Below, one piece after another: positions 30,571 to 32,142 of a stretch of DNA of 32,405 nt (positions are counted from its first letter, which is position 1; each line of letters opens with the position of its first letter). The notes below the pieces were generated by a model. It did not search any database and had not been told where the DNA came from. It saw only the letters and a program-made list of their open reading frames with translations. Made by a program: the position numbers and the translations under genes. The stretch is from Clostridia bacterium (GTDB taxonomy: Bacteria; Bacillota; Clostridia; Oscillospirales; CAG-272): the NCBI GenBank assembly GCA_017624905.1, contig JAGAMD010000019.1, forward strand, positions 1-32,405, in the 5' to 3' direction.

Positions 30571-30705
30571 TTGTGTAACACACGTAAGATAGATTGCCTT
30601 CCCCCAATATATCATAGCCTTTTGTCGCTTTGTACTATTTTCCCAACCTAACGGGTAAATAACCCCGACTGTCCAATTAATGCCCATGCTTTTGCGTGGC
30701 AAAAG

Positions 30706-30830
30706 CAAGCGGGAAGGTTCCACAAGCCTCCTTTGTGCAAAGGCACCCTTTAGGGCGTACCTTGTGTTGAGGTGTCACGCAGTGACGGAGGGATTGATAA
30801 AAGCTGCAATCTACACAAGCGGGAAGGTTC
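30706..30830. repeat. 15-bp direct repeats flanking REP copy C
   Basis: CAAGCGGGAAGGTTC occurs at 30706-30720 and 30816-30830. The two copies bracket the palindromic element at 30726-30793. Confidence 0.7.
30726..30793. repeat. REP-like palindromic element, copy C
   Basis: Same backbone as copy A (GCCTCC, GGCACC, GCGTACCTTG, AGGTGTC, GACGGAGGGA) but with different hairpins: CCTTTG-tg-CAAAGG on the left and GTCAC-gca-GTGAC on the right. Confidence 0.75.
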
Positions 30831-30861
30831 ACGAAGTGAACTATTTTCGCCGAGCCTTAAA

Positions 30862-30890
30862 AAAGCAAGGCTGAAAATCAGCCTTGCTTT
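30862..30890 (-). terminator. Terminator overlapping the four-helix-bundle gene end
   Basis: 13-bp stem AAAGCAAGGCTGA-aaa-TCAGCCTTGCTTT with a T run on the minus strand. The gene's TGA stop (30880-30878) is inside the stem. Confidence 0.85.
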
Positions 30891-31234
30891 AATTTATTTT
30901 CGATTGTAATACAGGAGCTTGTAAGCATTCTTTTAATTCTGCCACAGAGGTTTCTTAATTTTTTAAATGTTATTTCATCAATAGCTTCGGTAGAAAAGAG
31001 AAGCTTTAGCCAACTTTCAGTTTCGGCACATTCCTTTCGTGCTATTTCAAATTTAGAATGCATGTCTGCAAGACTTTGAGGGTATTGTGCTTCTGTAATA
31101 TTAGCAAATACACTTGAGGATGACTTTTTTATTTGAAAAACTACATTAGAATCAAATTTATTGTCCTTGCATAGCTTAGCTATACAAACAGCTAATTCCT
31201 CACTATATTCTAAAAGCAAATTTTTATTAGCCAT
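30878..31234 (-). CDS. Four-helix-bundle protein (23S rRNA IVS/S23 family)
   Basis: The 118-residue helical protein matches the IVS-encoded (S23) family pattern: VVFQIKKSSSSVFANITEAQ is the conserved second-helix core, followed by SKFEIARKECAETESWLKLL and a last helix ending near the C-terminus. Members form pentameric barrels and occur inside 23S rRNA intervening sequences, as free-standing genes, or as the Avd accessory protein of diversity-generating retroelements. The biochemical role of the stand-alone form is unknown. No rRNA or reverse transcriptase is in the window. The start at MANKNLL was chosen because the conserved domain begins there. The frame stays open upstream through a hairpin array, so a longer N-terminus cannot be excluded. 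The ribosome binding site is poor (GGGGGGTTGG). Confidence 0.8.
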   Translation of the reverse strand: MANKNLLLEYSEELAVCIAKLCKDNKFDSNVVFQIKKSSSSVFANITEAQYPQSLADMHSKFEIARKECAETESWLKLLFSTEAIDEITFKKLRNLCGRIKRMLTSSCITIENKLKQG

Positions 31235-31249
31235 AACCAACCCCCCAAT

Positions 31250-31447
31250 CAATGCGTAGCATTGCATGTAATCACGCATAGCGTGTATGGAATTTGCAAC
31301 TTGTTGCAGTATGGAATTGACACACACAGTGTCGTATGGAATCAAACTGAAGTACATCTTATACAATCTGACGATTGATGCCATACAGTCGCTGTGCGAC
31401 TGATTCCATGCACCTGACGGTGATTCCATACCAAACCTTCAGTTTGG
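31250..31447. repeat. Array of perfect hairpins joined by 8-nt linkers
   Basis: Hairpins: CAATGC-gta-GCATTG (31250-31264), CACGC-ata-GCGTG (31273-31285), TGCAAC-tt-GTTGCA (31295-31308), GACAC-acaca-GTGTC (31319-31333), CAATC-tgac-GATTG (31364-31377), CAGTCGC-tgt-GCGACTG (31386-31402), CACC-tgac-GGTG (31411-31422), CCAAAC-cttca-GTTTGG (31431-31447). The stems differ, but the linkers are nearly constant. In the left half they read TATGGAAT (31286, 31310, 31335) and in the right half the complement ATTCCATA or close variants (31378, 31403, 31423). An outer pair CAAACTGAAG (31343-31352) / CTTCAGTTTG (31437-31446) also exists. The array lies directly upstream of the four-helix-bundle gene. Confidence 0.85.
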
Positions 31448-31454
31448 ATAAATA

Positions 31455-31482
31455 AAAAAGTCGAACTAAAGTCCGACTTTTT
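31455..31482 (-). terminator. Hairpin terminator, distal
   Basis: AAAAAGTCG / CGACTTTTT stem with T runs on both strands. It is the second of two hairpins after the minus-strand gene ending at 31561; GTCGAACTAAA occurs here (31460) and again at 31510. Confidence 0.7.
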
Positions 31483-31526
31483 AATTTTGGTGAGCCACCG
31501 TATTAAAGTGTCGAACTAAATAAATT

Positions 31527-31560: not shown

Positions 31561-32124
31561 TTAGGATATTTTTCGTTCATATTCCGAGATTATAGAATTT
31601 TCTATAACGAAAAAATGTGCACTAGTAATTATGAAAATTCTAGAAAAACAAGCTTTAGATAAAAGTTCAGATTCAAGCAAAAAATCAAACGACAAATTGC
31701 TGTTAAATAAAGCGCCATCATCAGTACAAATACATAACTCATAAACATCATATTTTATTAGACGCTTTACTGCTTTTTCGTGTTTTGTTTCTATGGCTTT
31801 TATAATCGCTCTTCTGATTTCTGTCATACTACCGCCATAGTAAGATATCAAAGAACCACTTGCATCAATCTTAGCCATTTTTATGTTTATAGAAGTAGGT
31901 TTCTTTCCTTTAGCAAGCACTTTTTCATATTTACAAGCCTCAATTATATTTTCAGGAATAACAGATACGACTTCGAGTGCAATTTTTTTGTCTGGACTAG
32001 TAAAATCAAAATCATCAGCTTTTTTATTCCAAACAAATGTCGAATAGACATTATCATATGATAGTGAAATTGTGGTTTGAGCAAAAGGCTCTATTATATT
32101 GCTACTATAGTCTAAAGCTGGCAT
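31561..32124 (-). CDS. Hypothetical protein, possible nuclease-like fold
   Basis: I do not recognise the family of this 187-residue protein. It has no signal peptide or membrane helix. Residues 37-53 (DDFDFTSPDKKIALEVV) resemble the D...E-V core strand pair of PD-(D/E)XK-type nucleases (D40 and E51), but a catalytic Lys in the usual place is not evident. Basic residues cluster in the middle (KVLAKGKKPTSINIKMAK, ETKHEKAVKRLIKY), and beta-type segments follow. The ATG at 32124 was chosen because GAGG lies 8 nt upstream; two earlier in-frame starts overlap that site. It has its own near-consensus promoter. It sits in a repeat-rich accessory stretch next to the four-helix-bundle gene, but two hairpin terminators separate them. 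Confidence 0.65.
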   Translation of the reverse strand: MPALDYSSNIIEPFAQTTISLSYDNVYSTFVWNKKADDFDFTSPDKKIALEVVSVIPENIIEACKYEKVLAKGKKPTSINIKMAKIDASGSLISYYGGSMTEIRRAIIKAIETKHEKAVKRLIKYDVYELCICTDDGALFNSNLSFDFLLESELLSKACFSRIFIITSAHFFVIENSIISEYERKIS

Positions 32125-32142
32125 TATCATCACCTCATATTA

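Follow-up and report, generated by a model that had tools for sequence, protein, structure and literature searches.

A ladder-like hairpin array that may form part of a small mobile gene cassette in gut Clostridia, with relatives at the CCA ends of tRNA genes

REP, BIME and BOX elements are dispersed palindromes with a modular build, and integrons carry small unrelated genes in tandem, each with a site that is kept in structure and not in sequence. The Avd protein of diversity-generating retroelements has a four-helix-bundle fold related to that of the S23/IVP proteins, together with a nucleic-acid partner. The S23/IVP proteins are known from the intervening sequences (IVSs) of rRNA and are said to be without known function (PMC4990558). 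There the IVS of 23S rRNA appears as a small, sporadic parasite of a structural RNA gene, with complementary borders and a single S23/IVP gene, which lies inside the rRNA gene and is cut from the rRNA. Gut-1 RNA (Rfam RF01706), listed as a noncoding RNA candidate found only in the human gut (Weinberg et al. 2010, PMC2864571), consists of three hairpins with constant linkers and the consensus GUGAAAU, which is the left half of the ladders with GTGAAAT or GTGATAT linkers treated below. Half of such an array is already on record as this orphan RNA family. As far as the available text of PMC2864571 goes, the account of Gut-1 is one without an inverted right half, tRNA, IVP, cargo or mobility. The whole element of tRNA, ladder and IVP gene was not described in the literature searched, which covered neither subscription journals nor preprints, and its absence there proves little.

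The window, as the whole stretch of DNA analysed is called here, comprises 32,405 nt from a Clostridia bacterium. It holds an array of eight short hairpins with left and right linkers, for which a preliminary description had proposed a ladder of four-way junctions next to a four-helix-bundle gene. All hairpin and linker coordinates given there agreed with our reading of the sequence. The parts of the element are the following; those for which no strand is named have none assigned.

30857..31496, minus strand: whole element, which aligns with sister genomes; in a comparison of 900 nt to each side, the remainder is unaligned
31488..31502, minus strand: degenerate remnant of a tRNA-Glu 3' end (TACGGTGGCTCACCA), aligned by eye with TACGGGTCACCA at the same place in intact loci
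31452..31482, minus strand: hairpin and T-run resembling an intrinsic terminator, with which the element opens behind the tRNA end; similarly placed in related loci
31431..31447: hairpin 1, one arm also in the long-range pairing P1 (sequence, fold, consensus of related arrays)
31423..31430: right linker ATTCCATA (sequence)
31411..31422: hairpin 2 (sequence, consensus of related arrays)
31403..31410: right linker ATTCCATG (sequence)
31386..31402: hairpin 3 (sequence, consensus of related arrays)
31378..31385: right linker ATGCCATA, mismatched to the other half, a mismatch that recurs in relatives (sequence)
31364..31377: central hairpin (sequence)
31343..31352: P1 arm, exact 10-bp complement of 31437-31446; covaries in the window's and other lineages
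31437..31446: P1 partner arm (exact repeat)
31335..31342: left linker TATGGAAT (sequence)
31318..31334: hairpin 4 (sequence, consensus of related arrays)
31310..31317: left linker TATGGAAT (sequence)
31294..31309: hairpin 5 (sequence, consensus of related arrays)
31286..31293: left linker TATGGAAT (sequence)
31273..31285: hairpin 6 (sequence, consensus of related arrays)
31265..31272: left linker variant CATGTAAT (sequence)
31250..31264: hairpin 7, adjoining the RBS of the IVP gene (sequence)
30878..31234, minus strand: IVP/S23 four-helix-bundle gene, 118 aa, ATG after a G-rich stretch (Pfam PF05635, E 2.7e-19)
30861..30890, minus strand: terminator-like hairpin overlapping the IVP stop (sequence; recurs in relatives)

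The hairpins are real, but they are perfect, as first described, only if wobble pairs are counted, two outermost stem pairs (31294/31309 and 31318/31334) being T.G. The fold of 31230-31460 reaches -65.7 kcal/mol against a shuffle mean of -49.3 (sd 4.3, n=200; z -3.83), with 0 of 200 shuffles as low, and its minimum free energy structure already contains the pairing of left with right linkers. The long-range repeat P1 comes in addition to the parts first described, as do the terminator hairpin (31457-31480) and the degenerate tRNA-Glu 3' end. Read on the minus strand, the tRNA remnant comes first, followed by the terminator, the ladder and the IVP gene. Left linkers of the window lineage carry uncompensated mismatches, and because the window linkers vary, the array stays below the strict ladder thresholds used below (2+3 at a threshold of 3+3) and is also unmatched by the strict scan.

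The limits of the element come from comparing the window with three related loci (L203, L206, L207), which place its start at 30857-30861 and its end at 31466 or 31496; the alignment with L205 starts later because that contig begins inside the IVP gene. With its S23/IVP protein, whose sequence matches a single solved structure, PDB 2rld (E 3.6e-12), the window shares the protein of the 23S rRNA IVS. A known Rfam RNA in the window was rejected, there being no match at the gathering score; this also means that no rRNA lies there, unlike the location of the 23S rRNA IVS. ARAGORN found no tRNA in the window. The copy in the window is a member of the family without cargo, tail or tRNA, away from the tRNA gene of which it keeps only a remnant, and its IVP frame is open. 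Two neighbouring stretches may be recorded beside it. At 30690-30860 there is a repeat-like sequence around GAAAATAGTTCAC..GTGAACC..TTCCCGCTTG, which resembles by eye the sequence behind tRNA-Glu in ladderless sister genomes. A 190-aa ORF at 31561-32133 (minus strand), directly upstream of the element and without a Pfam match, is possibly cargo of a preceding cassette.

The linker-hairpin architecture recurs in other genomes, as the preliminary description had expected. Two TATGGAAT linkers 11-18 nt apart are present in 16 of 29 genomes of the genus and in 35 of 295 of the family (25 of 71 genera), counts that take in a few spacers without hairpins; the reversed linker pattern, used as a control, gave 0 matches in the genus and six in five genomes of the family. 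A scan of named genomes returned at least 117 stretches with the linker pattern, of which at least 30 have hairpin spacers of the array kind, all in MAGs of Clostridia, Clostridiales or Oscillospiraceae. Among the matches listed, 85 stretches, some from Clostridia, are without hairpin spacers, and the stem in L114 and L134 is chance-like. Across the loci with 79 related arrays, hairpins fill 127 of 148 unique linker-to-linker spacers (linker spacing 19-28 nt). The window's own genome, a MAG that is 74.7% complete, holds four arrays and one IVP gene. Most of the genomes are MAGs, many of them incomplete, and contigs often end in or near an array. Chance or artefact was rejected for the array family on the evidence of the fold against shuffles, the ladder test, the scan and the spacer hairpins. 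Phage origin was rejected as well: hairpins were found in the spacers of 0 of 12 triple-linker matches on viral contigs.

By a strict rule for the one-sided class, the 79 TATGGAAT arrays divide into 22 two-sided ones, with both inverted halves, and 57 one-sided ones. Eighteen (12 two-sided, six one-sided) lie within 300 nt of a tRNA gene, all of them on its 3' side, and at least three of these six "one-sided" arrays read as two-sided (L203, L211, L213). No tRNA lies within 300 nt of 51 of the 57 one-sided arrays. An IVP gene is found within 500 nt of six of the 22 two-sided and two of the 57 one-sided arrays, the other 55 having none. The proposed tie to the four-helix-bundle gene stands in that ladders and IVPs go together in one IVP clade, but most TATGGAAT arrays have no IVP as a near neighbour, and the main neighbour is a tRNA gene. 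The remaining one-sided arrays use a genome-specific hairpin set, and some directly precede a gene. It is this dispersed class, built from the same units and mostly found apart from tRNA and IVP genes, that speaks for an ordinary, functionless palindrome of the REP/BIME kind with incidental neighbours. Such an origin is very improbable given the fixed order and spacing behind the tRNA CCA, the association with IVPs, the conserved boundaries and the covarying P1; differently from REP, BIME and BOX elements, stem sequences here turn over, linkers stay constant and two-sided forms occupy a fixed tRNA context. For the two-sided ladders it is disfavoured by that context, for the one-sided arrays it may hold, and the cassette explanation is in turn limited, the one-sided arrays elsewhere in these genomes falling outside it.

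Some individual arrays show further peculiarities. In three groups (L242-L246, L236-L240 and L230-L235) the genome-specific hairpin units of one-sided arrays occur in shuffled order, as if copied between arrays. A second two-sided array with TATATCAT-type linkers lies directly behind the first in L202:200-400. Near-identical arrays and flanks on two contigs of one genome (L199 and L200) could reflect a recent duplication or an assembly effect.

The sense-strand order in relatives is an encoded tRNA CCA end, a terminator hairpin, a linker-hairpin half, an inverted half, usually a promoter, and the IVP gene (PF05635). PF05635 has matches in 193 of 295 family genomes, and 60 IVP loci were taken from the matches listed, mostly the strongest, with matches near contig ends mostly skipped; IVP starts were set by a simple rule, and a few proteins may be truncated or start only with the profile match. 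An intact tRNA on the same strand ends within 600 nt upstream of 25 of the 60 genes, 16 of them at 264-274 nt, compared with one tRNA on the opposite strand and three downstream. Among the 42 ladder IVPs, 25 have this upstream tRNA, against none of the 18 other IVPs, and all 25 tRNAs have encoded CCA ends. The other 17 of the 42 ladder IVPs in this first sample are without an intact tRNA within 600 nt, some lying behind protein genes or other cassettes. The 24 letters after the CCA are identical behind Val, Arg and Ala tRNAs, with Leu one letter off and Met one base shorter.

A 3+3 ladder (an exact 6-mer at least three times on the left and its complement at least three times on the right) is present in 28 of 60 IVP regions, two of which are plain short tandem repeats, and in 2 of 1200 shuffles; by group it occurs in 26 of 41 ladder-group IVPs and 2 of 18 others. 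For a 2+2 ladder the figures are 38 of 41 and 4 of 18, with 40 of 1180 in shuffles of the first sample. Across the order, a search started from one IVP of the ladder clade matched 120 of 295 genomes. Thirty of the matched loci were sampled, 27 of them with at least 300 nt upstream (L439 repeats L302), and these 27 have a tRNA in 24, a 3+3 ladder in 17 and a 2+2 ladder in 27 cases. Elsewhere in the phylum, 30 IVP loci yielded no tRNA and, within a crude window, no clear ladder either. Two other families of the order contributed three loci: L399, where a ladder follows a protein gene, and the ladderless L400 and L401. IVP loci of a second kind have short tandem repeats, several of them inverted, flanking the gene (L345, L347, L304, L306, L290, L292, L314, L326), no ladder or tRNA upstream and IVPs outside the ladder clade. 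In L325, L294 and L298 the IVP genes have short repeats inside or just beside tRNA-Leu genes, and in L325 the start of a tRNA-Leu-like sequence stands on both sides of the element.

Comparison of these loci shows a unit with the order of tRNA CCA, terminator, ladder, usually a promoter-like pair, and IVP, often followed by variable cargo. On balance, sequence comparison tips towards reading the array as the ladder-like part of a small, mobile cassette of genes, one that in related copies is inserted exactly at the tRNA CCA end. Comparison also finds closely similar units after tRNAs that differ in isotype: in a set of six, which follow Ser, Val, Arg, Met, Leu and Ala tRNAs, identity is 77-88% and 15 of 15 pairs align as a block. 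The shared block starts 3-80 nt inside the tRNA, where the tRNAs resemble each other, and runs until 3-8 nt beyond the IVP stop. Of the 45 pairs of different isotypes, the remaining 30 are less clean, most falling short of one or both boundaries and one extending 57 nt past the stop.

Comparison also shows that a single tRNA locus has different units, or none, across sister genomes. The tRNA-Met-tRNA-Glu pair was matched in 27 of 29 genus genomes and could be read at 23 loci from 22 genomes, with one further match lacking the pair. At all 23 loci the tRNA-Glu 3' end is common and divergence begins exactly at the CCA. Behind it, five loci carry a window-type ladder (G005, G010, G013, G014, G017), three another linker type (G012, G016, G026), and in the other 15 no ladder was seen in the 210 nt covered; among these is the window's own genome, whose pair is located on contig C17. 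Repeats of the tRNA 3' end at the far end of the element were noted by eye as a 15-bp repeat in L207 and a duplication ahead of the element in L256; a repeat also lies near the second G010 locus, and none was seen by eye in L338 and L339.

Comparison shows a turnover of cargo behind the IVP. Where the IVP of a ladder locus ends in TGA, an ORF of at least 70 aa begins at an overlapping ATGA in 17 of 21 loci, a count in which L337 is doubtful, L312 and L319 are near-copies and L336 is cut by the contig. The other 21 ladder IVPs end in TAA or TAG, and TGA-ending IVPs without a ladder have the overlap in 0 of 4 cases. In the order-wide set 7 of 18 have it, four have a short ORF, one is cut and six are without ATGA. 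Thirteen cargo proteins are mutually unrelated by BLASTP save one pair at 35%, and 4 of 10 pass a Pfam cut-off (histidine phosphatase, nucleotidyltransferase, GNAT acetyltransferase, DUF218). Anti-phage cargo was rejected as a general description, since PADLOC matched only 1 of 10 proteins (nine cargo proteins and the window IVP), a nucleotidyltransferase-type cargo.

Some cassettes, as comparison shows, continue with a tail of about 60 nt and further cassettes. Among 20 downstream stretches, BLAST found just eight that have a tail in common with an unrelated cassette. Tail identity is 83-95% in five pairs, and these tails start within about 20 nt of the cargo stop. In L356, L357 and L359 a new terminator and ladder follow the tail, then a gene without an IVP, and unrelated ORFs thus stand in tandem, each accompanied by a conserved site. 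The conserved tail after the stop, found in some cassettes, is integron-like. Unlike integrons, ladder cassettes have their own promoter-like pair, an anchor at a tRNA end and an extra ladder ahead of the gene. Over the cut-off, the IntI-type integrase model TIGR02249 matched 0 of 118 family genomes; below it, tyrosine recombinases appeared in 117 of the 118 and likewise in all 14 controls. The ladder unit also departs from the 23S rRNA IVS, since it lies behind a tRNA gene after its own terminator and carries a ladder and variable cargo. The suggested link to retroelements found no support: a reverse transcriptase (RVT_1) occurs in 3 of 29 genus genomes, one of them the window's own, on another contig (C5), a point in which the ladder carriers may differ from diversity-generating retroelements.

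For the structure, 19 rows chosen from two-sided window-type arrays formed alignment A1, and 18 of 23 prepared ladders of other linker types formed A2 (L308, L311, L312, L315 and L340 being dropped). RNAalifold returned the proposed ladder of four-way junctions unaided for the 19 window-type arrays, whose ladder pairs in 96.7% of cells against 85.8% in shuffles (0 of 500 as high). Comparison across lineages shows compensatory change in the stems, the long-range helix and the linker pairs. In the A1 ladder 19 of 43 pairs changed in a compensatory way, 18 of them in hairpins, which bears out the earlier suggestion that stems change with pairing kept. P1 is 98.2% paired in A1, with 5 of 10 pairs changed on both sides, and 98.9% paired in A2, with 7 of 10 changed on both sides; for the three linker helices of A2 the values are 96.0% and 9 of 18. 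Two measures do poorly here: counted as changed pairs, these results were reached by 17 of 500 shuffles (P1, A2) and 10 of 500 (linkers, A2); the number of pair types was reached by 107 of 500 (P1, A1), 169 of 500 (P1, A2) and 500 of 500 (linkers, A2). Two of five measures of linker covariation in A2 are poor, and this covariation is weaker than it appears because an inverted array of one binding motif yields complementary halves anyway. Covariation of P1 would not follow from such an array.

P1 and the ladder helices cross; a nested fold has room for only one of the two, which must be alternatives or a pseudoknot. The regular ladder helix was recovered as proposed, but a conserved long-range helix competes with it. 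This crossing by a P1 that covariation keeps, and the terminator that comes first, would suit an element acting on transcription, an insulator or attenuator, which shields the tRNA and adjusts the expression of IVP and cargo through a switch between P1 and ladder. We regard this as quite improbable, because an attenuator would work without a second, inverted half and without repeated linkers that vary together, and because the promoter-like pair is placed after the ladder. In 32 of 42 ladder IVPs that pair lies no more than 75 nt from the IVP start, where shuffles give 5.5; the other IVPs have it in 2 of 18 cases, where shuffles give 1.9.

The linkers, first described as almost constant, are so within a lineage type but differ between lineages, with left and right halves staying complementary. 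By comparison, linker type follows the IVP tree (120 columns, 66 rows). One clade (support 100/99) takes in 48 IVPs. Of these, 44 carry a linker label; L203, L256, L317 and L337 are labelled "none", but they are flanked by ladders wherever the flank can be read. On the tree the label changes 13 times against 39.7 times when shuffled, with 0 of 200 shuffles as low, a low count that near-copies favour. A CsrA sponge, suggested by the GGA in the linkers, was dropped as other lineages' linkers have no GGA.

The same structure and covariation would suit RNA. A structured RNA, either a noncoding RNA or an IVP leader that binds the IVP, for example in feedback control, is the most serious alternative to the cassette module and is nevertheless unlikely. 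Rfam files the left half as Gut-1, and of the 28 loci with ladders that were scanned, five score at or above the gathering value of RF01706 (50.2-66.7 bits), the 23 others being unmatched; one ladder locus has a weak antisense match (32.1 bits) on its right half. The window-type ladder lies directly before the RBS of the IVP gene, which means that it may be transcribed. Against this, the promoter-like pair after the ladder and the terminator seen by eye before it in relatives would place the ladder outside the IVP message, and the window, of the TATGGAAT lineage, has no match to the Gut-1 model up to E 5. Inner wobble pairs of TATGGAAT-type hairpins have no clear strand preference (G.T 13 against A.C 9), as compared with 14 against 0 for the outermost pairs beside the linker; these counts come from an unbiased selection, since constant linker bases or a G.T-only selection would confound them.

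For the cassette module, we infer that the ladder acts as DNA, extruded or single-stranded, and serves as a recognition or recombination site. Recognition at the DNA level would be by the IVP or a recombinase, with the lineage-specific linkers as the sequence-specific part of the site and the variable hairpins giving its shape. The IVP may be the cognate binding or architectural protein of the ladder. The terminator would spare the host tRNA, and the inner promoter would drive IVP and cargo. Like the integrative elements that tyrosine recombinases place at tRNA genes, the relatives sit at a tRNA 3' end; unlike them, the homologous unit of about 630 bp has no integrase gene of its own and contains only the IVP. 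In the sequences compared, neither a recombinase nor a circular form nor movement was observed; the enzyme that cuts and joins probably acts in trans.

More tentatively, and with somewhat less confidence than in the cassette itself, these units might represent a new class of gene capture in gut Clostridia. In such tRNA-anchored cassettes, ladder DNA and a cognate IVP would replace the attC-IntI pair, cargo would be exchanged between the ATGA and the tail, and tandem growth could start from any tRNA CCA end. The repeated architecture, the tRNA anchoring and the variable cargo place the S23/IVP proteins and the orphan Gut-1 in one element, in which IVP function becomes directly testable. If the gene-capture reading is true, the S23/IVP proteins gain a function and the Gut-1 "RNA" is half of a DNA recombination site. 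This would add a second, integron-like route of gene capture in an order of gut bacteria, and would offer a case in nature of serial four-way junctions in DNA that varies in sequence and keeps its shape.
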